NCBI RefSeq assembly: GCF_030253575.1
Contig: NC_080569.1
Span: 13,699,501-13,763,500, forward strand
DNA: 64,000 nt
DNA from: Rhododendron vialii
Lineage: Eukaryota > Streptophyta > Magnoliopsida > Ericales > Ericaceae
Direction: 5' to 3'
Position 1 is the stretch's first letter, and each line of letters starts with the position of its first letter. Position numbers and translations under genes: made by a program. This document shows, piece by piece, positions 16,410-62,527 of the stretch. The notes beneath the pieces are model-generated. The model saw only the letters and a program-made list of their open reading frames with translations, did no database searches and was not told where the DNA came from.

Positions 16410-19261
16410 GAAAGTAAACTTGGAATGCCAGCTCATCTTTTACACGATATCTATCAACTAGTTCTGCTTAACAACTCACTAACAAACTAACTAATTAATG
16501 ACCCTTGCTTACACACCCCTGCAAACTAATGGGTGTGTTAACAACCATTAGTTTGTCTTTAAGAAAAATAAAACGAGCTATAGAAAGGGACTTTGTAAAA
16601 ATGTCTGCTACTTGGTCCAAAGTTCCAACATGTTGAATGACAATCTGCTTGTTCAGGACCTTTTCTCTGATAAAATGATAGTCAATTTCTACATGCTTGG
16701 TCCTAGCATGGAAATGGGATTAGAAGCCAGGGCTATGGCAGAAAGATTATCACACCAGATGATAGGAGGCAATGTAGAAGGCAAACAAAGCTCCACAAGC
16801 AATTGTTGAACCCATGTAACATCTGCTGCCGTTTGTGCCAATGATCTGTATCCAGCCTCTGTGGATGACCTTGCAACAGTATGCTGCTTCTTGGCACACC
16901 ATGATATGAGATTAGATCCAAGAAACAAACAGAAACCTGTAGTTGATCTTCTATCTACTGGATTACCAGCTCAGTCAGCATCCGAGAAGGCAGTTAAATA
17001 CAATGGACCAGGAGTGAAAGCAAAGCCTTGATTAAGACTACCTTTAATGTACATAGTATACGTTTTACAGCAACAAAATGACTATGTTTTGGGTTATGCA
17101 TGTGCTGACAAGCAAGGTTAACAGCAAAGGATATCTCAGGTTTGGTAAGAGTGAGATATTGAAGGGACCCCACTATAGTTCTAAACCAACGCACATCATC
17201 AAAATCAGCATCAGGAGTAAACTGAGCAGGCTTAGTAGAAGAAGGAGAATTACTTGGTTTACAGTCAAACATTCCTGCCTTAAGTAAGAGATCAGTTGCA
17301 TACTTAGTTTGAGAAAGGATAATAGAAGATCCATGATACAATACTTCAATACCCAGAAAGTAGCTCAAAGAACCAAGGTCTTTCATCACAAATTTGGAAC
17401 TTAGAACAGAAATCAAGTCTGCAATGTAGGAAGAGCTGCTACCAGTAATTAAAATGTCATCCACATAGACTAATACCAAAGTAATATCTGCAGCAGTTTT
17501 CTTGATAAACAGAGAAGAATCAGCTTTGCTTTGAACAAACTCTTGTTGAAGCAGAAACCCAGAAAATACAGAAAACCATGCCCTAGGGGCTTGCCGTAAC
17601 CCATAAAGAGCTTTAGTCAGTTTACACACAAAAGAAGGATGAACAGGGTCTTTATAACCTTGTGGTTGTCTCATGTAAACCTCTTCATCAATTACCCCAT
17701 GTAAAAACGCATTGGACACATCCAATTGTTTGATGGACACTCGAACCGTGGGTTGTTTAATGACAGGACTGAAAGTTTCTGTAAAATCCAACCCCTCAGT
17801 CTGTTGATTTCCATTTGCAACTAAATGAGCTTTATATCTGGCCACACTTCCATCAGAATTACGTTTGATTTTATAGATCCACTGACAACCAATAACATTG
17901 GCTCCCAGAGGAGGTGGAACAAGTGTCAATGTCCCTTGTTTGACTAAGGCTTGATATTCTTCATTCATGGCTTGATGCCACACTGGATACTTAATGGCTT
18001 CAGAGTAATAAACAGGTTCTTTTTTTGGCAAAGTTAAGTCAGAACCAACAACATTCAAACTAAAAACAGTTTTAGGTTTGACAATCCCATGCTTGGCTCT
18101 AGTAACCATGGAATGTGTGTTCAGAGAAGAGGAAGAATTGGAAGTTTGAACAGGAGAAAGAGAAGAGGAATGAGGAATATGAGAAGAGGAATGAGGAATA
18201 TTAGGAACAAAACTTTCAGTGGGAACATCATGAGTGACAGGAGAAGAGGGAGAAGAGACAGGGAAAGGAAAAGAATTGAGATCAGAAACAGAAGGAGACA
18301 CTGGTGTGACAATAGTTTGATTGGAATCAGCAGAATTAGGAATAACAGACAGAGAGGAAGAGTGAATAGGTATGGCAGAAATCTCATTCATGGTATTATG
18401 ACCAGAAGGGTGATGATTTGTGAAGACAAAAGTTGCAGAAAAGGGAATAGTAATAGCAAGATCCTCAAATTTAGTTAGAGGAACACTAAAAGAAGTAGGA
18501 GAAGAAGATGACAAAATTGAAACAGATTGAACTAAGTCAGGATAAGGAAATTCTGTTTCAACAAACTTAACATGTCTAGAAATGAAAACTTTATTGGTAC
18601 TGGGATCATAACATCTGTACCCCTTTGTTTGAGGACAATAACCCAAGAAAACACAAGGAGAAGATTTTGGAGACAATTTATTTAAGGTATACGGTTTCAG
18701 CCAAGGATAACAACTACAACCAAAAGGCTTGAGAAATAAATAATCAGGTGAAGTCTGAAACAACAAGGTATAAGGAACTTGGAACTTGGAACTTGAGACT
18801 AGTATGAGGTAGTCTGTTTGTAAGACACACCGCAGTACTCAAGGCTTCAAGCCAGAAATTGGTAGGTAATCGAGATTGCAAGAGAAGTGTAATAGTAGTT
18901 TCAATAAGATGTCTGTGTTTCCTTTCAGCTAGACCATTTTGTTCTGGTGTGTGAGGACATGAGGTTTGATGAATCATACCATTAGTGAGAAAAAGAGTTA
19001 AAAGAAAATGATTTATGAACTCACCCCCATTGTTACTTCTCATAGTTTGAATGGTGGTGTGAAACTGAGTTGACACATAGGCTTTAAACTGACTTATAAC
19101 ATGCTTAACTTCTGACTTATAATGAAGTGGAAATAGCCAAGTAAATCTAGAGAAATCATCAATCATCAACAAGTAGTATCTAAAGCCCTTATGAGATGGG
19201 AGTATAAAATTAAGAAAACTCCTTGTCAGATTTGTGGCAAAACAAACCATAGAGCCAATTA
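16311..19261 (-). mobile_element. Broken Ty1/copia retrotransposon
   Basis: On the minus strand, from high to low coordinate, lie an integrase core (about 18750-19200), a long copia-type reverse transcriptase (about 17000-18760) and an RNase H end (about 16690-16930). An LTR-like block follows at 16311-16543, with ends TGTTAACA...TCTATCA read on the minus strand. That domain order defines Ty1/copia. The 5' LTR and most of gag are missing, so the copy is truncated, and it also has a few internal breaks. At 19212-19260 a gag zinc-knuckle-like fragment lies on the opposite strand, which points to a local inversion. Only one LTR is visible, so age cannot be read from LTR divergence. Confidence 0.85.
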
Positions 19262-23935: not shown

Positions 23936-24064
23936 CCCGGCCTCTTCATTTACAACTTCGACCAACTCAATTTTGAAAACCAAAAGTACTCCCTTCCAAA
24001 ACTCTCAAACGTACCATTCCCCCAACAATCCCTCCCTCTCAACCTCTATTTTCTCCTCTGAAAA

Positions 24065-24889
24065 ATGGCAATCCACCAGCTAAATCTAGCACATGAAAAT
24101 CAACTGAAACCCCTCAAACTCCAAGGTTTCAAACAAAAGGATCAAATGGCAAATGGGATATCCTCCTTTTGGGCTTTGCTTTTCTCCATTTTCGTCTTTG
24201 TTTCTGTCTTCTACATCTTCAGCCTCTCCCCTTCCTCTCTCCTCAACACAACCAAATTCTGGTTCTTCATTTCCAACACTCTCATTCTCATCATTGCTGT
24301 TGATTTTGGTGCATCGAAAAAACGAGCCGAAATCTACGAAGAGTGCGTGGAAGAAAGCATGGGTAATATTAATAGGTTTCCATCGTTCGAGTGTCCATAC
24401 CCGGAAAAGGAAATTGCTGAGACAAACAATCCACAGCACCCGGAAAAGAAAATTGCCAAGACAAACATTCCAGCCCAAAAGGAAAAGAATTTACAAGAAA
24501 CTCTAGAAGAAGTAAAAGAAGTTGTCGTTGATGTTGTTAGTAAGAGAGAATCCAGGGAAAATAAAATGCAAGTCGTTGCAAAAGTTGATTTGAAAATGTG
24601 TATTGAGGAACCCGAAGAAAAGATGGTAGAATTCCCTCCAAAAGTTGATCATGAGAAAGTTCATGAGGAAGAAAAGGAAAGAGAAACAAGCATTGGAAAT
24701 GAGCGGCCAAACGAAAAAGAAGAAGAAGGAAGACAAGAAGAAGAAGATGATGACGATGATGATGAGTTTTCAAAAATGTCAAATGAAGAATTGAACAGAA
24801 GAGTTGAGGAGTTCATTCAAAGATTTAACAGGCAAATTCGGCTTCAAGCAGCTCAAAACAGAATCCAGCAAACGCAGGGATGTAATTAA
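24065..24889 (+). CDS. DUF761-type two-helix membrane protein, copy A
   Basis: Single exon, 274 codons. Two hydrophobic helices lie near the N-terminus (about residues 35-54, FWALLFSIFVFVSVFYIF, and 65-82, FWFFISNTLILIIAVDFGA). A long charged, coiled-coil-prone middle follows, with an acidic run of Asp/Glu near 220-235. The C-terminal motif SNEELNRRVEEFIQRFNRQ (about 238-258) is the DUF761 signature of plant proteins such as PAMP-induced A70. No enzyme motif is present and the molecular role is unknown. The start is fixed by the conserved MAIHQLNLAHEN shared with copy B. Relative to copy B, the frame ends about nine codons earlier after a small change near the stop. The tandem paralogue lies 7.1 kb downstream in the same orientation. 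Confidence 0.85.
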   Translation: MAIHQLNLAHENQLKPLKLQGFKQKDQMANGISSFWALLFSIFVFVSVFYIFSLSPSSLLNTTKFWFFISNTLILIIAVDFGASKKRAEIYEECVEESMGNINRFPSFECPYPEKEIAETNNPQHPEKKIAKTNIPAQKEKNLQETLEEVKEVVVDVVSKRESRENKMQVVAKVDLKMCIEEPEEKMVEFPPKVDHEKVHEEEKERETSIGNERPNEKEEEGRQEEEDDDDDDEFSKMSNEELNRRVEEFIQRFNRQIRLQAAQNRIQQTQGCN

Positions 24890-26002: not shown

Positions 26003-26395
26003 TACTGCTAGGTGTACCGACCATTTTTGGACCGAAACCGTACCGACGGCCGCGCGCGGCCGTCTCCGGCCACCGGACGGCCGATCCGAGCCGTCCAAAA
26101 ATTTTAAAAAAAAAAACCGAGGGGCCCCACGCGGGAATTAACGTCATCCGATGTGTGTAGGGTGCTTGATCTAAACACCCTATTTTTCGTGTATACATAT
26201 ATACACGAAAAATAGGGTGTTTAGATCAAGCACCTTACACACATCGGATGACGTTAATTCCCGCGGGGGGCCCCTCGGTTTTTTTTTTTAAAATTTTTGG
26301 ACGGCTCGGATCGGCCGTCCAGTGGCCGGAGACGGCCGCGCGCGGCCATCGGTACGGTTTCGGTCCAAAAATGGTCGGTACACATAGGATTTTCG
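26003..26395. mobile_element. Palindromic element, copy 2
   Basis: Same family as 23371-23769: arms with GTGTACCGACCATTTTTGG at the ends, CGGCCGCGCGCGGCC near the tips and a TATACATATATACACG-type centre near 26195. Its asymmetric outermost bases show it is in the opposite orientation to copy 1. The flanks hold TTTATTTTTGAG (25991-26002) and TTTATTTTTTGAG (26396-26408), a 12-13 bp imperfect direct repeat. It lies between the two duplication copies. Confidence 0.75.
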
Positions 26396-31109: not shown

Positions 31110-31200
31110 CCCCCTCTTCATTTGCAACTTCTACCAACTCCAATATTGAAAACCAAAAGTCCCTTCCAAAACTCTCAACCTCTTTTTCCCCCTCTGGAAA

Positions 31201-31986
31201 ATGGCAATCCACCAGCTAAATCTAGCCCATGAAAATGATCAACTGAAATCCCTCAAATTCCAAGGTTACAATCAAAAGGGAAATGGGATATCCTTTTGGG
31301 CTTTCCTTTTCTCCATTTTCATTTTCATTTCTGTCTTCTACATCTTCAACCTCTCCCCTTCTTCCCTCCTCAACACCACCAAATTCTGGTTCTTCATTTC
31401 CAACACTCTGATTCTCATCATTGCTGCTGATTTTGGTGCATCGAAAAAACAAGCCCAAGTCTACGATGAATACGTCGAGAAAAGCGGGGGCAATATTAGC
31501 TTTCCATCGTTCCAATCTCGATACCCGGAAAGGGAAATTGTTAAAACAAGCATTCCACCTCAAAAAGTGAAGAATTTCCAGGAAACTCAAGAAGAAGTAA
31601 AAGAAGATGTTGTTCGTGAGAGCGAATCCACGGTAAATGAAATGCAAGTTGTTGTAAAAGATGATGTAAAAGAATCAACAGAGGAATCCCAAGGGAAGAT
31701 GGTGGAATTCCCTCCAAATGTTGCTAATGAAGCTCATGAGGAGGAAAAGGAAAGCGAAACAAGCATTGGATATGAGCCAGATGGAGAAGAAGAAGAAGAA
31801 GAAGTAGAGGAGGAAGAACAAGAACAAGAAAATGAGTATTCAAAATTGTCAAATGAAGAATTGAACAGAAGAGTTGAGGAGTTCATTCAAAGATTTAACA
31901 GGCAAATTCGGCTTCAAGCAGCTCAAAACAGAACCCAGCAAATGCAGAGAGGAAATTTTGTCCACCAGACCTCATTGGTAAAATGA
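31201..31986 (+). CDS. DUF761-type two-helix membrane protein, copy B
   Basis: Single exon, 261 codons, paralogue of 24065-24889. The N-terminal helices (about residues 32-51 and 62-79) and the C-terminal SNEELNRRVEEFIQRFNRQ motif (about 217-237) are nearly unchanged between copies. The charged middle differs by many substitutions and in-frame length changes. Strong conservation at both ends with a loose centre argues that both copies have been under selection as proteins. Copy B ends with about nine extra residues (NFVHQTSLVK). Function unknown; DUF761 relatives include pathogen-response proteins, but that is only a family hint. Confidence 0.85.
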   Translation: MAIHQLNLAHENDQLKSLKFQGYNQKGNGISFWAFLFSIFIFISVFYIFNLSPSSLLNTTKFWFFISNTLILIIAADFGASKKQAQVYDEYVEKSGGNISFPSFQSRYPEREIVKTSIPPQKVKNFQETQEEVKEDVVRESESTVNEMQVVVKDDVKESTEESQGKMVEFPPNVANEAHEEEKESETSIGYEPDGEEEEEEVEEEEQEQENEYSKLSNEELNRRVEEFIQRFNRQIRLQAAQNRTQQMQRGNFVHQTSLVK

Positions 31987-41345: not shown

Positions 41346-43416
41346 CTACTCTTCAACATTATCCGGCGCATTCATCATTTGCATATAACTTTGTTGTCCT
41401 CCGCATCCTTGCCATTGACTTTTTAGCATACTTGGTTGTGGTCCTCTCCAATATTGACCTTGAGCTTCCAAAATACCTGATTGTCCTCCTCCCCAACCTT
41501 CACTACCCGCAATAATTGATTGACCCATCCAAACTTGACCATTTAATAAGCTTTGTGAACTTGGAAAATAAGGCATAAATTGGTTCAAACTTGTTTCGGT
41601 GGGGCATAAAGTTGGGGAAAATGGGAAGATGCTTCCACCTTGTGCCATATTTGGTCGCATGGGATGGGGCATCATGTTTGGCCACATTGAGTGTCCCATG
41701 TAGCTTGGGTGGCCCTGCCCATAAAAAAAAAAGTATTTTGAATAACAATTACATGACACATGAAATTATGCAAGAAGTCAATAAAATTTCTTACATTTAC
41801 ATTTACGATACTCTCTTGTGTCCCGATATGGTGGCTAACCGCAATCTCCTCAACCTCCTGAAATTAGCAAATTATATAACTATTACACATTCATCGAACA
41901 AATCTATATGTCCATATTAACTAGTAAGCAACGAATCGTAAAAAACTTATACCTTGGATTTTTCGTTGGACAATGGCTTCTTAGACGTTTGTCTTTTCTT
42001 CGTAACAGCTTTTTCCACAGCACCGATCTTTCTTTTGCACGGCGGTCTCCCTTTTCGTCGAAGACCTTCCGGGTCAAGTATGTCCGTGCTCTGTTTAGGA
42101 GGTATAACCCCATCTACAAGTGAAAAAGAACTTTTACGAGTTCCCGTGTCATCACCAAGTGAAACCACATTACTTTCACAAACAACAGAAGCTTCCATCA
42201 GCTCTCGTTTTAGCTCGTGTACCCGTTTCATCACCATATCATACTTTTCTTGAGATTCTTCCGCTAAATCAGCAACTTCATTAAAGATATTGCACATGTT
42301 GTCATGCCGACGTGCTTCAATTGACGTTGACGACTTATCGTAACAGATTCGAACTTTTGTGTGGATCCTTTTCACATTTTTACACCATCTTCTCAACACA
42401 TACTTGTCAAGCACTCTTTCAATTCCCTTTTGATGCCACACAAATAGTTGATGTTTACACACCATTCCTCTAGACTCGAACAATCGACAATTACAATGTG
42501 TTTCATTGGTTTCAGCATTGAAATTAACAGTAAATGCCACTTGAATTCTCTTTTTCTCTTCTCCTTCGCCATATGTAACCCACTCATTTATCTCATGTTC
42601 AGACCCGATATCATCAACTTTAGCCGGCTTATCACAAAAACAGTGAATTTTATTGAAAAATTGTTTCTGAAACTCCTTAACCTTTGCATGGGTGTAAACA
42701 CTTTGAAATTGCTTCTCCAACTCATCTTCGGTCATTAACGGGATGAAAGTGTTCCAACTTTTCGCATCTGCATGATTTTCACTTTCCACCTTGTTCCCCA
42801 ATGCATTTTCATACTGTCCTACAAATTGTTTCAGGGTCGTTTTTGAATGAACATAACCATTAAAATACGCATTTATATTCTCACTTCTTTGTGTGGATGA
42901 CATCCCCGCCCAAAAAACATCGTTCAAATAAGCAGGCACCCACCTTTTCTTCTCCAAATACAACCCCTCTAACCATGTGTTACTTTGAAGCTCGTACTTC
43001 TTAATGAACACATTCTAAGCATCCTCAAATTGTTTTATGGTAAGTGAAGCATAAACTGCCCTATGCATACACCAACTACTATTCTCATAGGCATTGCACC
43101 CATTCAACTTTTCTGGGATCTTTTTCATAATATGCCATATGCACCATCGATGTCGGGTGTTAGGGAATATATCTTCTATGGCATTCTTCATGGCCATACA
43201 TTGGTCGGTAATAATTGCTTTCGGAGCACAATCCCACATGCATGTCTTCCAAGTCTCAAATAACCACGAAAATGACTCCGTGTCTTCGTGAAAGATGAGC
43301 CCGCATCCCAATAAAACAGACTGGCCATGATGATTCACGCCTACAAACGGAGCAAAAGGCATGTCATGCCTGTTTACCAAGTAAGTTGTGTCAAAGGTCA
43401 CAACATCACCGAATTC

Positions 43417-43447
<31 letters not shown>

Positions 43448-44259
43448 TAGAAGACATTCCTTAATCGACCCTCATCATCCAAATCCATTGCAAAAAAGAA
43501 GTCTGAATTATCGGCTTTCATCTTCATGAAATAATTGTGCATCGCTTGAGCATCTCCTTCCACAAGTAGTGAACGACGCACTTTATCCACATGATTCCGG
43601 CAATCTTTCTGGATATATGGAAGCTTACCAGGTCCCCCAGCCTCAATCTGAAGTGAGGTATAAGTTTGGTTCAGATTGATCCCAGCTTTATCATTCAATT
43701 CAAGTTTTCTTTTCACGTGTTCATCGAGTGCCCTATTGCTCCTCAAATACCTTGCCTTTCCCGGGCTCTGTTCATGATTGTGAACTAAAGCAACCCGGTT
43801 TAACCTCCACTTTCCATTCGGGTGCAACACAATGGTAACATGAGCTTGACAATCAATTTTTGATTGTGGCCGTGGTTTGACCGGATTGCTTGTTGTCACC
43901 CTTGCCTTTCCAGCACGACTGCATGCTATAGTTAAATCCTTCAACTTTCCATCTTTTCCCTTTCTCGATGTTCTTTTTGCCACAGCAAACCCTTTTTCTT
44001 TAGCATATCTTGAGTAATATGAATAAGCTTCCTCCGATGTGTCAAAGGTCATTCCCTCTTTCAGTTCTTCAACTTCATCTTCACAATTTTCTGTTGCCTC
44101 CTTCCCAACTCTGCTAGTATCTATTTCACCACACTTTTTGTTTGAAGGACTACTCCATACCTCTTGTTCGTCTTCATGGTCTCCACTCCATACATCTTCT
44201 TCTTCTACACACTCTTTGTTTGGAGGCATTGCCGATGGAACAGAATCCGACGACATCAT
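41346..44259 (-). pseudogene. FAR1-type MULE transposase, two in-frame stops
   Basis: Three exons on the minus strand: 44259-41953, 41857-41807 and 41714-41346, with GTATAA and GTAAAT donors and CAG acceptors that keep phase. About 908 codons. Domains in order are an acidic N-terminus; a FAR1 zinc-finger DNA-binding domain (from GMTFDTSEEAYSYYSRYAKE to WRLNRVALVHNHE); a MULE DDE transposase core (VVTFDTTYLVN, AIITDQCMAMKNAI, HRWCIWHI); a SWIM finger (CNCRLFESRGMVCKHQ); and a basic tail plus a Met/Gln/Gly-rich C-terminus. Two TAG codons (43449-43447 and 43017-43015) replace Trp at conserved places (NVF-W-ADARSR and FEDA-W-NVF). Otherwise no break was seen. A host FAR1-related gene is the alternative, but its position between TIRs and a 9-bp TSD marks it as the element's transposase. 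Confidence 0.85.
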
Positions 44260-53327: not shown

Positions 53328-54922
53328 TAAGGGTGTCAAATGGGCGGGTTTGGGTCAAAATGGGCAAGTTATAAGTGGGTTGGGTCTTTAATGGGTCATT
53401 GACTCATTTAGACCCATTAATTATGAGTTCAATTACCCATACTCAACTCGACCCATTTATTTAAAATCAAACCCGACCCGCCCATTAACCCAATTACTCA
53501 CCACCACCACAACGCCGCCGCCACCACGCCACCCTCACCGCCGCCGCCGCCGCCACCACCACGGCCACCGCCGCCACCACCACACCGCCGCCACCACCAC
53601 CACCACGCCACCCTCACCACCACACCGCCGCCACCACCACCACAACGCCGCCGCTGCCACCACCTCCACACCACCCTCACCGCCGCCGCCACCATCGCTG
53701 CCACCACCACCACCACAACGCCGCCGCCACCATGCCACCCTCACCGACGCCACCCTCACCGCCACTACGGCCGCCACCGCCACGCCACCCTCGCCACCCC
53801 CACCACCATCGCCACCACCACGACCACCGCCGCCGCTGCCACCACCGCGCCACCACCACCATGGTGGCGGCGTGGTGGTGGAGGTGGCGGCGGTGGTGGC
53901 GGCGGCGCGGTGGTGGTGGTGGTCGTCGTGGCGGTGGTGGTCGTCGCGGCGGTGGTGGTGGGGGTGGCGCGGCGGCGATGGCCGTAGTGGTGGTGGTGGT
54001 GGCGGCGGTGAGGGTGGCGTGGTGGCGATGGTGGTGGTGGCGTTGTGGTGGTGGTGGTGGCAGCGATGGTGGTGGCGGCGTGGCGATAGTGGCGTGGTGG
54101 TGGTGGCGGCGGCGATGGTGGCCGTAGTGGTGGTGGTGGCGGCGGTGTTGTGGTGAGGGTGGCGTCGTGGTGGTGGTGGTGGTGGTGGTGGTGGCGATGG
54201 TGGCATTGTGGTGGGGGTGGTGAGGGTGGCGTGGTGGTGGTGGTGGTGGTGGTGGCGGCGGCGGCGGCGGTGGCATTGTGGTGAGGGTGGCGTGGTAGTG
54301 GTGGCGGTGTCGTGGTGGTGGTCGCAGCGGCGGCGGTGGTGGCAGCGCGGTGGTGGTGGTGGTGGTGGTGGCGTGGCGATGGTGGCGTGGTAGGGGTGGT
54401 GGTGGTGGCGGTGGGTGTGGCGCGGTGGTTGAGGTGGCGGCGGCGGCGGCGACATTATGGTGGTGGTGGCGGCGGTGGTGGTGGCGCAGTGGTGGTGGTA
54501 ACGGAGACGGCGGTGGCGGCAGCGGTGGTGGTGGCGTGGTGGTGGGGGTGGTGAGGGTGGCGTGGTGGTGGCGGCGGTGGTGGTGGCGCGGTGGTGGTGG
54601 TAACGGAGACGGCGGTGGCGGCAGCGGTGGTGGTGGCGTGGTGGTGAGGGTGGCGTGGTGGTGGCGGCGGTGGCGGCGTGGTAGAGGGTGGGCTGCATTC
54701 ATTGGGAATCTGGTAAAAGATGAAAATTTTTCATGGGTTACTTTCATGCCCATTGGGTCATTTTAGTTGACCCAATTAATACCCAATTAAGACCCAATTA
54801 ATAATGGGTTAGTTGGGTTTGGACCCATTCTTACCCAGTTAATAAATGGGTTGGGTTGGGTCTATTTTTTAGTTGATGGGTCTGGGTTTGTTAATGGGTC
54901 TGGGTTCAATTTGTCACCCCTA
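53328..54922. mobile_element. hAT-type element with GGTGGC-rich core
   Basis: Ends TAAGGGTGTCAAA and TTTGTCACCCCTA are inverted. The exact 8-bp duplication CCTGTCAC flanks it (53320-53327 and 54923-54930), diagnostic of hAT. Subterminal phrases GGGTTGGGTCTTTAATGGGT and TTAATGGGTCTGGGTTCAAT match the ends of 27131-27825. No transposase is present. The middle (about 53500-54690) is a huge triplet/hexamer repeat, described separately. Confidence 0.9.
53500..54690. repeat. Strand-switching CCACCG/GGTGGC repeat array
   Basis: From about 53500 to 53862 the plus strand is CCACCACCG/CCGCCACC repeats. At CACCACCACCATGGTGGCGG (near 53860) it flips to GGTGGC/GGTGGTGGT repeats until about 54690. The longer G-rich side includes a near-repeat of a block starting GGTAACGGAGACGGCGGTGG at about 54498 and 54599. 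All long open frames across it are repeat artefacts. The sequence could form hairpins and, on the G-rich strand, G-quadruplexes. Confidence 0.9.
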
Positions 54923-54930
54923 CCTGTCAC

Positions 54931-57464
54931 CGTAGCTCCCATTGAACGGCTTGAAGTTCTTATTAGGGCTTTTCAACTATAAAAAACTATCACACCAGAG
55001 GAAGGTACAAAAATTTATGGATTCCTAAATTTGCACTTAGTTTTTGGCCTCCACTGTAAACTGTTGTGCATGCTTGTACCATGTGCAAAATACAAGACTC
55101 TTGCGCACAATAATTTTGACATTAACAAAAACAGTTTTGGCAATATCATTTCTCTTAAATTTACTCTTTGTTGGTACTTCTTTTTCATTGCGTGCTTCGG
55201 AGTTTTTCTTGTGTTGTCGAAATCTGGATTTGAGGTTTTGGTTGCTCTTATTAGTATCGTATTGCTCTTCTTAATCTCCAATTTGTGGCCCATAAATACA
55301 GCCAAGCTCACAGTTTGTCTGTGTGGTATATTCTTCACGGGGATTGATCTAAGTCACATAAGTCGCATGCGCGTGTTTGAGCGAAAGCGCGAGCGTCAAA
55401 GCGTCAACACATTCCAAACTAAAACTACTAAAGTCCGTGAGAGGGAGGATTGAAAGCGTGAGCTGGGATTGAGAGCGGGAGCGCAGAGCATTTGGAAGGA
55501 TTATGTGACTACGGGATTGATTACTTGTTTGCTTGTTTAAAAATTTTGGTCCTCCAGCATCAATCAAATTAACTTTTTATATTTTTACGTACCCTAATTA
55601 TGGATAATAATTATGAGCAAAAAATTATGGATAATAATCCCCACGAAGATCTTACTGAAGATTAAATCCTCTATACGTATGTGTGCGCGCGCGCGCATGC
55701 GCAGAGTGACAACCGTACACAAGGTTATTCCAAGCAAAGTTCTCTCTGTTATTATCTGGGAGGTTCGTCTTGGGTTTGTTGGTTTCTTGGGGGTGGGATC
55801 ATAAAGACATTGTGTGTTTTAATATCATGAATTTATTATTTATTATAGAATTTGTATGATTGTAGCCTTTGTAGGTCACATGCAACTCACTGCTAAGGCA
55901 TATAATGTGTATATATAGATGTGTATTACATGCTTATGTATTTGGAGGTCAATCCTACAATTACTGCAAGATAATGTGCCTACTGTGGGTTGTAGCGCGC
56001 TGATAGGAATTTCATTCAGTGGGGTCCTTCGTAAATTTCATTCAGTGGGGTCCTTCGTAAAGTCATTTGTAGTGTCTGATTTCTAATTCTACAAAGCTAA
56101 TTATTAAGAAAACCAACTTTACCATGCAATGTTGCATTTCATTAATTATCAAGGTTCAATGGAGCCAACAGAACTCTACTCAAACAGTCAAATTATATGC
56201 ATGAATCAAATGGACGGTCATCTCTTTTTTTTTTTCGTGATTCTAAAAACCTTTGCCAACTAAGCCATACCCCCCCCGAGCCAAGTGGAGCAAACATGAA
56301 GGAGTGCAATTAATGCATGCTTCTTAGTAATAGTATCTACTGTTCATTTTCTCTAAGTTTTAGTGGCCGTGTTCAGTTGAACCCTCTCAAGTCCATTCCA
56401 CAACTCCACATAGCTCCAATCTTTCTAAAGTACAAAATTTGATGCTAAATGAGTTCTTTACATCTGTTGCACCTTATGATCAATCGAACATGCAGGATTA
56501 GCCATTCATGAGCATATTTTTTTATTGTTCCAATAGTTTGTCCCTTCTTTAAAAATGTTACTACTTACTATAATCAGCATTTACTATTCAATTTGGACAT
56601 GGTAGATGGATATGCAGAGTTTGTCTGTGGAAAACCAACTGTTAGTTGTTCACAATTTTAAAACCGGGTTATGTTATTTCCCCTTCTTTTCAACAAGACA
56701 ATAGCCTTATGTCTACCTGATTACTTATTCATTGCTTCCACTTTTTTACTCTCCCACGTACATGCCTTTATAGGGCCAATGCTGCATAGGTTTGACTTGA
56801 ATAAAATCTTACGTTTATACTTTAGCACCGAGTGACCGACAGAAACCATCTCCTACCAGGTCAAACAGATAAGTTTTGGGGGGTCAAATCTATTTTGGTT
56901 CTAGTGTATTTATTTGCGAAGAATACATGCATCCAGTGCACTAGGTAGAACTGTAGAAGCCATATGATTGTCCAGAAACTTTAAGAAAATGGTGTCTTCT
57001 CTTAAACACCATGCAGCAGTCAGCAAGAGGGCGTGCACAAGGGCGCAGGTAGCTTTGTTAGAAATTTAAGAAGATTCACAGTGTTTTTCTCAAAATCTAA
57101 GAAGTGTATAAGACCGTTCTCTACTCCGTTCATACTTTCTAGTATCCTTTACTCTGCAGATTATGTGTTTTTTAGCGTTTCTATGTATTTTTGTTTATGC
57201 ATATGCAGTTATACAATAACAAATTAATAATAACTACATGAGATCCAACACCATTCTTCTTCAGATTTTTTGCTGGAAATTGTTAAATCTTTCCTTCTTA
57301 GGAAGAATGACAGTAGGAAGTTAACAGAAATGCTAGGGAAGGAGAACCCTAAATTGTCATGAGATGTTTTTATGTTTTATAAAAGGAGTTGTTGCGGTGG
57401 AAAAATATATGAATGGACTATACTTGATTGAACACATAACCTTTTATTGGGCTTTAGAGTGCAA
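54931..57464. other. Intergenic, no gene seen
   Basis: No recognised coding sequence. The hydrophobic frame at 55031-55453 has no family match that I know and no splice context. Minor features are a GCGCGCGCGC run near 55685 (alternating purine-pyrimidine) and a 27-bp tandem repeat ATTTCATTCAGTGGGGTCCT near 56010-56060. Confidence 0.4.
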
Positions 57465-57669
57465 TTTGTTCACCCTCCTTAAAAGAGGTTGAACATTACC
57501 CTTCTTTCTATTGGTTGAAATGATGTGGATCCCACTACAAAGTGATGTCATGCTTATCATGCAATACACTTTTTTGATAACCATGACATCATTTTGTGGT
57601 GGGATTTACACCATTTCAATTAATAAGAAAGAGGGTAATGTTCACCCTCTTAAGTGGAGGGTGAACAAA
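57465..57669. mobile_element. Palindromic MITE with TTTGTTCACCC ends
   Basis: TTTGTTCACCCTCC and GGAGGGTGAACAAA are inverted, and the arms match through AACATTACCCT, TTGAAAT and GATGTCATG around a centre near 57566. Similar direct repeats CCTTTTATTGGGC (57440-57452) and CCTTTATTGGGC (57677-57688) lie just outside both ends, possibly an imperfect long TSD. Non-coding. Confidence 0.7.
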
Positions 57670-58248
57670 ACCCAACTCCTTTATTGGGCATAGTGGCAAA
57701 AACAGATTCACATTGCCAATTCGAATTTATTTGGACACAAGACTTATTCTGGTTTTTTTGCCTGTTGTTGATATTTTTCACTTGTAATGCTGTTTATTTA
57801 CAAGCTTCAGTGTTCTTGACCGATAAAATAAGAATAACTGACATAATCAATGGGTTTGATTTGGAGAATATTTTGTTTAGTAAAGTAACTTTAATGTCTC
57901 GTAGTTATTTTCTTTTAGAATTCATGTAAATCTTGATGATTTGTTTCCGGTTTTAATAACCATGCTCTGATTGACACGGATTTGCTTTTTTATTTGCACA
58001 TGTTTTGCTTAGCTTCTCCTCCTTTTATCTATGGAGTTCTGAGATTGGTGACATTTTCTTGCTCTTTTCTTTCTTTAATTCAACTGTGTACTAAGAACTT
58101 GAAAAGCAGTGGAGATAGAATTCAGTATATAGATGATGAAAAAGTCACAGGAAAATGGTGTATGGGCATCACATACACCTGCAAAATCCATCTCGCTAAG
58201 GAAGTGGCCTGTTTCATTGGAAAGAAAATGGAAAAGTCATGTGGGTGA

Positions 58249-58944
58249 ACAAAGTCTGTGACAGAGGCAAAAGGTAATTCACTGCTTCAAGGGTTTTCAA
58301 CAACATCAGAAACTAGCAATACTAGGGAAAGTCACGAAGATTGTGTAGACTCGAAGAAGCAGCCATAGAAGAAACACAAAAGCAAGAAATATTGCCCTAG
58401 GGTATTGGTTGAAGTCAAACCAAAGAAGAATCCAAAACCTTCAACTCCCAAACGATGCACTCCAAAGTCTATGACAGAGGTAAGAGGTAATTCACTGCTT
58501 CTAAAGTTTTCAACTACATCAGAAACTAACAATACCAGGGGAAGTCACAAAGATGATGTAGACTCGAAGAAGGACAGTTAAGAAACCCAAAAGCAGGAAG
58601 AAATATTGGCTTAGGGTATTGGTTGAAGTCAATCCAAAGAAGAATCCAAAACCTTCAACTACCAAACGATGCATTCCAAAGCCTTCCAAGAGATTTTCAG
58701 ATGAGAAGAGGAGGGATGTTGTAGAGGATTGTCTCCCTTCTGCCTCCACTAAACCCTCAAAACGTTTACAGGTTGATGGGAATGGAATTGATGCAACTTA
58801 TGTCCCAGCATCAGCCAAACAAGCGATCAATTTCGACGAGCAAAATCATAAGAGAGATTCTAGGAAAGCTGCTAGAATCATTATTCATAAATATCAACTA
58901 CTAAAAAGGAAAGTCGATGGGTCATCATGCGGGCGCCAAAGCAA
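58249..58944 (+). pseudogene. Decayed fragment resembling a DEMETER/ROS1-type protein
   Basis: Two tandem copies of a unit of about 213 bp (58251-58463 and 58464-58680). Each encodes a basic, proline-rich stretch (PRVLVEVKPKKNPKPSTPKR and VLVEVNPKKNPKPSTTKR). This is like the KHRPKVxxExKPKxxPKP motif in the N-terminal part of plant DME/ROS1 DNA glycosylases. The first unit has an in-frame stop, and the second is shifted relative to the first. The frame then continues through SDEKRRDVVEDCLPSAST to 58948. The glycosylase HhH and FeS domains are absent. The match rests on one motif only, so another lysine/proline-rich protein is possible. Confidence 0.45.
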
Positions 58945-59672
58945 TTGAACAGTCAAAAGAAGGCAATTTAATGATGAAGACTCCACGGGCATGACATTTG
59001 GCTTTACCCCAACTGAGGTGTGGATTCAGTCTACCCAGATAGAGGGAGGGGCTGCTAATGACCCTCATTATATAAATTAGACACGTTGCTGCAACCAAAA
59101 CTCCTTAAAAGTCTACCAAAGGAAATTCTGGGCCAACCAATGCCTGAGCAAAGGCAGAAACTTGGACCCAATTTTTCCAGAAGAAAAGAAGGATGACAAG
59201 ACGAAAGACAACCATGTATGACACTTTAAAGTCTGTGATAGCTGCAGAAGATAGCCATAAGACACCTAAGAAGGGAATGATCAGAAGACACCTAAGTTAG
59301 TTGCCTTATGTCTTCTGATCGTTCTCTTCTTAGGTGTCTTCTGGCTATCTTCTGCAGCTACCACAAACTTTAAAGTGTCATACATGGTTGTTTTTTGTCT
59401 CGTCATCCTTCTTTTCTTCCACACCCCGGAAAAATTGGGTCTAAGTTTGGCAGCTATTACTCAGGCATTGATTGGCCCAGAATTTGCTTTGGTAGACTTT
59501 TAAGGAGTTTTGGTTGCAGCAACCAGTTTGATTTATATTATGAGGGTCATTAGCAGCCCCTCCTTTGTCTCAGACAACTGGGTAGACTAAATCCACGCTT
59601 CAGTTGGGGTAAAGCCAAATGTCATGCCCGTGGAGTCTTTAACTATTAAATCGCCTTCTTTTGACTATTCAA
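58945..59672. repeat. Long inverted repeat (hairpin locus)
   Basis: Left arm 58945-59290 and right arm 59309-59672 are inverted copies with about nine in ten bases matching by eye, around an 18-nt loop (59291-59308). Shared phrases include GAAGGCAATTTAATG-type sequence, GACTCCACGGGCATGACATT, CTGCTAATGACCCTCATTAT and ACTCCTTAAAAGTCTACCAA. The left arm is the direct continuation of the coding-like sequence before it and stays open for 40 or more codons. This suggests the right arm arose by inverted duplication of a gene fragment rather than as a transposon end. No TSD was seen. A transcript across it would fold into double-stranded RNA of about 350 bp. Confidence 0.85.
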
Positions 59673-59807
59673 GTGTCCCGGTTAGCAATTATATCTTGAG
59701 ATAAAGCTTTCAAAAGTTATATTACTGCCAAACGGGACACTTGAAATTTGGCCCCTCCTGGTTCTGCACCTGATGAAGATTGAAAAATGGCAAAGAAATA
59801 CTCCAAT

Positions 59808-60960
59808 TTTCTGAATCCCAAGGAATCTCTTCTGCACTTCATGCATCTCCAAAGAATCAAGTAAAACAGTGGACACACTTTCTCTTGTTGCACATCCTTT
59901 CCCCCAAGCTCAAAGTTTTGGATACACTTTTTGTTGCTGCACTCGTCTCTTTCCTTTTGACATTGGATAGATGTCTTCAACCGGAGTTCTTGTTTAGTAT
60001 TGTTGTATGTTTTAGCCAATTGTGTCTTTTCGATTCCAGTGCCTTAGCTTGGTCTTTTATTTTTCGGGACTGTAAAACTTTATGCATTTTGTATATATAT
60101 ACATGATTTTCACTCTGCAATAAGTCCAAAGTACAATTTGTCTCCCAACACCCCATCATTTTTTTTCCTGCTTTCCTCCCAACACATCTTCATGTAGCTT
60201 GAACTATGCTGGTAACTCTTTCTTGCATACTTCTTTGGCTTCTCCCTTGCTCTTCAACAACTTTGTTTGGGAATGAAAAGAGCAACATAGTCAAAGTCGT
60301 TAAAAATTTAAGCAAATCACATAATTTCATCAAGTGATAGGCCTAACTTTGTCATTTACACACTCAGCCGTCCTCTCATATGCGGTCACTTTCATTAGAT
60401 ATAGAAGTTGAGCACAAGTTTTACTGCATAGTCTGATACCATATGAAATCCTATACCTTTGACTTATCTAAAATCTCAATTTCCTCTTGAAAGGGTCTTC
60501 ATATTTTTATTGATTTCGTCTTAAATTTTGAAAATGTAGATTGAAAGTGACGAAATGGCTCAAATGGTGTCACGCAACATTTCCATAGAAAATACGGGTT
60601 CAAGACTACGACTGAATTGAGATTTTACAAGTGGTCATATTAATTCCTGAAAAAGAAGTTCTAAAATTGGTATTAATAACGTAGGGATTCGGGGAAGCTG
60701 ACCAATGAACCCAGAACTTGAGAACATAGAAATGGATCTGTCACTAGGATCATCAGGAACACCATCTTCCTTCCACATATTATCAATATACTCTAAGTAT
60801 GTTGATAGATTCACAAACGGGTCTTCCCTTATGGATCAAGATGGGCACCGATCTACACCCGGATTCATTTCCCGAACCAGCAGGCTTCTTATATTATAAA
60901 AGAAAAATGCAACAGTGAGGGGTCTCCCTCGAATTAACCACCACCACATCTCTATGTTTC
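59808..60960 (-). pseudogene. Decayed tau GST duplicate
   Basis: Collinear with the GST gene at 50607-51954. The 3' exon end (CTTCTGCACTTCATGCATCT, GTGGACACACTTTCTCTTGT) lies at 59830-59900. Middle pieces (AAGTACAATTTGTCTCCCAA, TTCTTTGGCTTCTCCCTTGC) lie at 60128-60270. Exon 1 pieces (CACTAGGATCAT, CTTATGGATCAAGATGGGCA) lie at 60735-60850. An unrelated segment of about 240 bp separates two parts of the 3' exon, and the frame is lost in several places. The upstream flank is shared to about 61200. It is a dead copy from duplication of the locus. Confidence 0.8.
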
Positions 60961-61619: not shown

Positions 61620-61961
61620 CTATTCCTTCAGTGAAAGTAGCGACAATTGTTCTTCAATGGAGCAATCGACATGACAAGATTTTCGGCAAGAGAAGGGGAT
61701 AAGAATGAGGCCAAGGCACCGTTGTTCCATTGGAGAAGGGGAAGAATGTCTGGTGTTTCGATACTCCACTGCATCTTGGAGAATAATGTTTCCTTGCTTA
61801 TCAATGCAGTAGAATGTGCCCAAGAAAAAGCGCCCGTCACTTACCCCCACTAGCATTTGCCGAAATAGCAGTTTCTTCACTGTACCCACTAGACTGGAGC
61901 CATTTGTTTCAGAAGTTCCTACTTGATTTAAAGATGTCTGCGTGCGTTGTTCAGTTTCCAT
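61620..61961 (-). CDS. LSM-domain protein, NAA38-like (NatC auxiliary subunit)
   Basis: Single-exon frame of 113 residues. After a short polar N-terminus, the Sm fold runs from VGTVKKLLFRQMLVGVSDGR (Sm1, with the DGR turn) through FFLGTFYCIDKQGNIILQDA (the FxCxDxxGNIxLxDA pattern) to MEQRCLGLILIPFSCRKSCH (Sm2 region, LGLILIP). It ends CSIEEQLSLLSLKE. This is the layout of plant NAA38/LSMD1-like proteins, small auxiliary subunits of the N-terminal acetyltransferase NatC. Length is normal and the frame is unbroken. On the minus strand, TTCCTCAG just upstream of the ATG could be an acceptor for a 5' UTR intron. Confidence 0.88.
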   Translation of the reverse strand: METEQRTQTSLNQVGTSETNGSSLVGTVKKLLFRQMLVGVSDGRFFLGTFYCIDKQGNIILQDAVEYRNTRHSSPSPMEQRCLGLILIPFSCRKSCHVDCSIEEQLSLLSLKE

Positions 61962-62527
61962 CCTACTGAGGAATTTGTTTTGAAACTCACAAATACTTCA
62001 AGAAACCAAATCCACCAAGAAACCAAATCCGCCAACTTTATGTGTTCTGTTGATCCTGCAAATCATAATTTACCCCAGTATCAGTCAAGGACATATGTTA
62101 CTCTGTTAGAGAAGGAAAGGAAACCATCAACGTAAACGGATGAGCATAAAAAAGAATTTTTGCATTTACTATGAAGTTAGCTTTACTTGTAAAAAAGGAT
62201 ATGAAAGGAGGCTCGTATTTAGTCGCTAAGATAATATTATCCTTTTCTGGCCCTTGATATCAAAGTTGCACTAATCTTTTAGGGTTATTTCCAAGGACAC
62301 CCCTTCAACTATCATATTTTGTCAACATAACCCCCTCATGTTTAAAATTTATTAACCTCACCCCCTCATCTATCAAAACTCATCAACTACACCCCTTCCA
62401 TCCAATTTTGTTAAGAAATGTTAGCAAAAACCATTAACTTGTAAGGAATAAACATTTTGAAGCCTAAAATGCCCATCAACAGAAAAACCCAGAAAATCAC
62501 ACTCCATCTTCTTCTCCTCAACCCTAC

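Follow-up and report, generated by a model that had tools for sequence, protein, structure and literature searches.

Loci at which an inverted gene duplication gives rise to siRNAs are already known in plants. Mu killer in maize is reportedly a naturally occurring inverted duplication with a transposon as its source, and is said to have been described by Slotkin et al. in 2005; PAI, the gene duplicated in another such locus, is a biosynthetic gene. The closest known system is the VIM4-VIM2 inverted repeat of Arabidopsis Cvi-0. Its siRNAs are reported to act both in cis and in trans, with the homologous VIM1 reduced, and its small RNAs map over the first exon; the two genes share 99.86% identity between the start and stop codons, and the account includes siRNA and 5′RACE data (PMC13213937). 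SULF of Antirrhinum and YUP of Mimulus are described as small-RNA loci that trace back to coding genes duplicated incompletely or in inverted orientation (PMC12371187). For hairpin transgenes, perfect inverted repeats were reported to be methylated and self-silenced, whereas mismatched ones were not (PMC9263138). A literature search covering titles, abstract openings and few subscription papers found no natural hairpin locus made from a DME/ROS1 gene.

The window, i.e. the whole stretch of 64,000 nucleotides analysed here, corresponds to C13:13699501-13763500 of a genome that was searched over 532.6 Mb in 13 contigs; candidate counts from the genome sequence search are lower bounds. As shown in Table 1, the window contains a palindrome of about 730 bases, which is real and far beyond chance. 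Gapped alignment of one arm with the other gave 322 identical columns out of 353 (91.2%); the other 31 are mismatches, and 20 gap columns come in addition. The ungapped inner core lies at 59180-59290 and 59309-59419. The preliminary description had proposed a hairpin locus formed by inverted duplication of a gene-like fragment, and the aligned arms bear this out, the right arm being an inverted copy of the last ∼365 bp of the gene copy. Its inverted arms and 18-nt loop were found as described, but "near-perfect" overstates the identity of the arms. It had also placed a tandem repeat upstream of the left arm and had the left arm run straight on from the gene-like fragment. Both points held: the repeat units match without gaps at 58250-58359/58463-58572 (88%) and 58381-58470/58595-58684 (92%), spaced 213-214, and the BLASTN match to the parent gene is collinear.

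Table 1. Features of the palindrome locus, in window positions. L005, locus of the parent gene; L004, locus of the second palindrome.
Feature	Position	Strand	Remarks
Copied parent upstream region (putative promoter and 5′UTR)	55651-58132	+	With gaps/insertions; BLASTN to L005
MITE-like foldback	57465-57669	.	95-nt arms, 82%; within copied 5′ region; common to L004
Presumed first coding exon of the parent, copied with a broken frame	58133-58941	+	ATG at 58133; internal stops
Tandem duplication of parent L005 4291-4511	58250-58684	+	Two units, spacing ∼213; also in L004
Palindrome left arm	58942-59296	+	Parent exon in sense orientation (L005 4788-5112), slightly extended
18-nt spacer	59291-59308	.	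Between ungapped inner arms; gapped arm alignment enters it by a few bases
Palindrome right arm	59305-59675	-	Antisense copy of parent L005 4783-5149
Small foldback	59668-59745	.	27-nt arms, 85%; at outer end of right arm; also L004 5773-5850

Predicted RNA folding of 58930-59690 gave −561.9 kcal/mol, whereas 20 shuffled sequences averaged −201.4 (sd 6.5, z −55.9). The opposite strand gave −554.1 kcal/mol (z −49.8, 20 shuffles), and one long duplex is predicted for either strand. A long inverted repeat, a short loop and arms homologous to a distant gene, the structural features of an hpRNA locus, are all present. The Rfam search of the window at the gathering threshold returned no match.

The palindrome forms the end of a frame-broken, largely collinear copy of the parent gene (55651-59251), which starts about 2.5-2.7 kb before the ATG and reaches into the coding exon. 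The collinear BLAST pieces (55651-58247 and 58463-59251, reaching L005 5112) span about 3.6 kb. Toward the 5′ end they comprise 55651-55874, 55902-56035, 56033-56101, 56371-57266 and 57730-58247, the last of which extends beyond the ATG, and they are 69-82% identical to the parent. The copied upstream region may contain a promoter, the activity of which is uncertain because the region is interrupted and differs from that of the parent to this extent. In the genome search, 55651-57440 was found in the window and the parent only (2 candidates, both scored). Protein search placed parent residues 1-40 at 58133-58252, 60-137 at 58243-58476 and 96-312 at 58562-59191, the copy carrying stops and frame changes. 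A larger duplication was sought by comparing the window with L006-L008, but the matches were scattered and no longer than 68-260 bp each (pieces of at least 60 bp considered).

Several other features lie in the window. Degenerate pieces of a GST gene (59799-60890) start about 120 bp past the right arm and are 71-96% identical, in the same order, to a GST gene at ∼50.6-51.8 kb. An open frame with an LSM domain (61620-61997, minus strand; Pfam PF01423, over cut-off), which is perhaps an NAA38-like gene, is directed toward the palindrome. At 53499-54673, ∼1.2 kb of degenerate CAC repeats is followed almost directly by GTG repeats, giving a large inverted structure of simple repeats. Farther off are the remnant of a Copia-type retrotransposon, which carries an RVT_2 domain (16994-18838, minus strand), a pair of open frames (24062-24889 and 31150-31986; 275 and 278 aa) that are alike by eye and apparently a local gene duplication, and a FAR1-type gene (41947-44259, minus strand) with the FAR1 DNA-binding domain over cut-off at 43447-44259 and a weak SWIM match at 41947-43014.

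With the palindrome as query, the genome search returned three candidates, all scored and all on C13: the palindrome itself, a second palindrome and a single-arm match (12313787-12314111, 79%) 1.45 Mb from the window locus. The single-arm match sits within a gene with a 550-codon open frame from an ATG, the end of which may enter an intron. One exon of this gene matched the ROS1 chains 7yhq and 7yho in the PDB (E 2.5e-21 and 2.6e-21) and another matched at 7.9e-9; the PDB matches of the downstream exons are to Arabidopsis ROS1. Perm-CXXC was over cut-off in the gene (L005/L006), and RRM_DME scored 34.0 bits in one exon, just under the cut-off of 34.6, and 44.9 bits, over it, in the upstream neighbour exon. 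The motifs GLKSVECVR and VDTNVGR lie in the open frames of two exons; we take them to be part of the catalytic region of the DME/ROS1 family. Glycosylase exons, Perm-CXXC and RRM_DME, the features that define the family, thus occur together, and viewed exon by exon the parent is an apparently intact DEMETER/ROS1-type glycosylase gene. The demethylase source raised conditionally in the preliminary description is thereby supported, and the search with the arm sequence that it suggested did lead to an apparently intact gene on the same contig. Pfam and PDB searches with the gene fragment alone gave nothing useful; the parent gene was needed first. Protein search with the 550-codon frame of the parent gave 12 matches (16 candidates), none of them outside the parent and the two palindrome loci, so the parent is the only evident target. 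Genome-wide, RRM_DME gave 20 matches (25 candidates) at ∼9 places on C2, C3, C4, C7 and C13, four of them on C3; places were grouped by position, with two C3 matches 5 kb apart taken as one gene. Judged by these matches, the DME/ROS1 family in this genome appears sizeable.

The second palindrome (L004) is whole, lies at C13 13835073-13835776, 76 kb away, and is 91% identical to the first. Homology of L004 to the window begins at 57440, so that the greater part of the copied upstream region is absent there. In the window, the right arm continues into the loop as antisense parent copy. All four arms of the two loci contain 18 nt absent from the parent, and two short parental stretches kept in the right arms are missing from the left arms at both loci. 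These shared changes give the order of events: part of the gene was duplicated, an inversion followed, the left arm then lost short stretches, and the palindrome was finally copied to L004. Across 307 gap-free columns of the four arms, 18 separate left from right arms, 1 separates the loci and 0 split crosswise, which indicates that the palindrome was copied after the inversion; in a further 6 of the 307, one arm alone has the base of the parent. These column-pattern counts exclude misaligned loop columns of one arm. The tandem repeat is older than the copying, since it is also present in L004. At the level of sequence, a partial gene duplication, its inverted repeat and the later copying of the finished palindrome are thus shown.

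Between the arms of one locus, identity was 0.902 for the window palindrome and 0.883 for that of L004; between like arms of the two loci it was 0.966 and 0.930, and between arms and parent 0.792-0.805. The four-arm comparison gave no sign of homogenisation, the arms diverging independently. The two loci differ at 44 of 709 columns in the palindrome and at 177 of 3865 in the flanks (Fisher p 0.07), the direction being that of faster change in the palindrome. The flank total is the sum of 63/1499 and 114/2366, with 109 columns to the right of the palindrome (11 differences) left out. No extra conservation of the palindrome relative to its flanks was therefore found between the two loci, and its divergence follows the pattern that would be expected without present selection on pairing. 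Both palindromes are nevertheless still predicted to fold, the one in the window at −553.6 kcal/mol and that of L004 at −494.0. A methylation-type mutation bias was considered and set aside: of 39 arm singletons, some of them from loop columns misaligned in one arm, C>T/G>A changes made up 19 and A>G/T>C changes 9, but CpG is equally depleted in the arm region of the parent (observed/expected 0.29) and in the palindrome (0.28), the window value being 0.63. The locus seems to be decaying slowly and is probably near-neutral today.

We tested how far the arms still fit the parent with a simple plant-type scoring scheme of our own (mismatch 1, G:U 0.5, positions 2-13 weighted 1.5; threshold ≤3). 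Antisense 21-mers of the window arms reached the threshold in 124 of 686 registers (56/351 in the right arm, 68/335 in the left); the other 562 scored above 3. None of 2106 control 21-mers from six random window stretches did so. The arms of L004 reached it in 150 of 651, equal to or above the window arms. One 21-mer of the window right arm matches the parent exactly, and the best matches fall at L005 5010-5062. Outside the arms, the broken exon fits equally (147 of 672 21-mers at score ≤3), so the fit reflects descent and not selection on the hairpin.

On balance, these results favour a natural hairpin-RNA locus derived from a pseudogene, plausibly siRNA-producing, decaying and with residual capacity to target its parent. 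Its layout of upstream region, sense arm, loop and antisense arm resembles that of an RNAi hairpin transgene. If the locus were transcribed, for example from the copied upstream region, the transcript would fold into a duplex of ∼350 bp, which DCL enzymes could cut into siRNAs of 21-24 nt. Hairpin RNA and siRNAs from this palindrome are plausible on the basis of its sequence. Such siRNAs would act most readily on their own locus, by methylation in cis, and at some sites they might still direct AGO to the mRNA of the parent. The 91% identity of the arms need not mean a loss of activity, because mismatched hairpin transgenes are reported to escape self-silencing (PMC9263138). Regulation of the parent is possible; a strong or maintained effect is unlikely.

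It could well be, with somewhat less confidence, that the locus is an inert rearrangement: a decayed, untranscribed pseudogene, made palindromic by a fold-back template switch, from which no RNA is made. The frame is disrupted at both palindrome loci in the protein search, and the absence of extra conservation, the independent divergence of the arms and the lack of most of the parental upstream region in L004 all agree with it. Nothing speaks against it directly; long inverted repeats that are transcribed in plants are able to give siRNAs, as in the two cases reported in PMC13213937.

An improbable explanation is a selected feedback locus, in which hairpin siRNAs tune the parent demethylase and the demethylase sets the methylation of the hairpin. 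The identity of the source gene, the restriction of the parental upstream region to the window copy and the parent, and the residual targeting capacity of the arms speak for it, as does the methylation-sensitive "rheostat" reported for ROS1 expression in Arabidopsis (PMC4380477). It is opposed by the missing conservation signal, the missing homogenisation and an arm-parent identity of about 80%. RNAi feedback on active demethylation is more doubtful still: in it the hairpin locus, carrying the upstream region of the demethylase gene, would be co-expressed with that gene and lower its product through siRNAs, while demethylation would keep the hairpin locus active; if true, it would be a self-limiting methylation thermostat peculiar to one plant lineage.

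That the palindrome is a common MITE or a foldback transposon of another multi-copy kind, for which many genomic copies with target-site duplications had been named as the sign, is extremely improbable. Its form is palindromic and MITE-like elements lie nearby (the foldback in the copied 5′ region, and 26008-26387), but its arms are a demethylase exon and the genome search found two such palindromes and one parent gene among 3 first-look candidates, all scored, a count that is a lower bound. The hairpin at 26008-26387 has 188-nt arms, 97% complementary, and is a high-copy MITE-like element: in the same search it gave at least 2497 first-look candidates, of which 40 were scored, with 80 matches listed at 96-100% identity. 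An assembly artefact from a chimeric or snap-back read is hardly credible either: amplification can create long palindromes, but these arms differ at 31 sites plus indels and the second locus has the same palindrome with changes of its own.

Among known systems, Mu killer is likewise a natural inverted duplication, but its source is a transposon whereas here it is a host gene. PAI4-PAI1, unlike the present palindrome, is a proven case of silencing, and PAI is not a methylation regulator. The likeness is that PAI4-PAI1 (Ws/Cvi) is an inverted gene duplication, which is reported to silence its homologues (PMC13213937). SULF and YUP differ in being established small-RNA loci in flower colour, SULF being reported under selection (PMC12371187). 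With VIM4-VIM2 the palindrome shares inverted copies of a gene of the DNA-methylation pathway and a short non-palindromic middle (PMC13213937). The differences are that a broken fragment of a demethylase, from the opposing pathway, is duplicated here and that the arms are 91% identical to each other and ∼80% to the target. Its single-copy parent, inverted duplication and later palindrome copy form an ordered series for the birth and decay of a hairpin locus. The interest of the palindrome lies in its target and not in its mechanism: transcription would make it a natural RNAi locus directed against a DNA demethylase, the mirror of the Arabidopsis Cvi case, in which methylation maintenance is the target.
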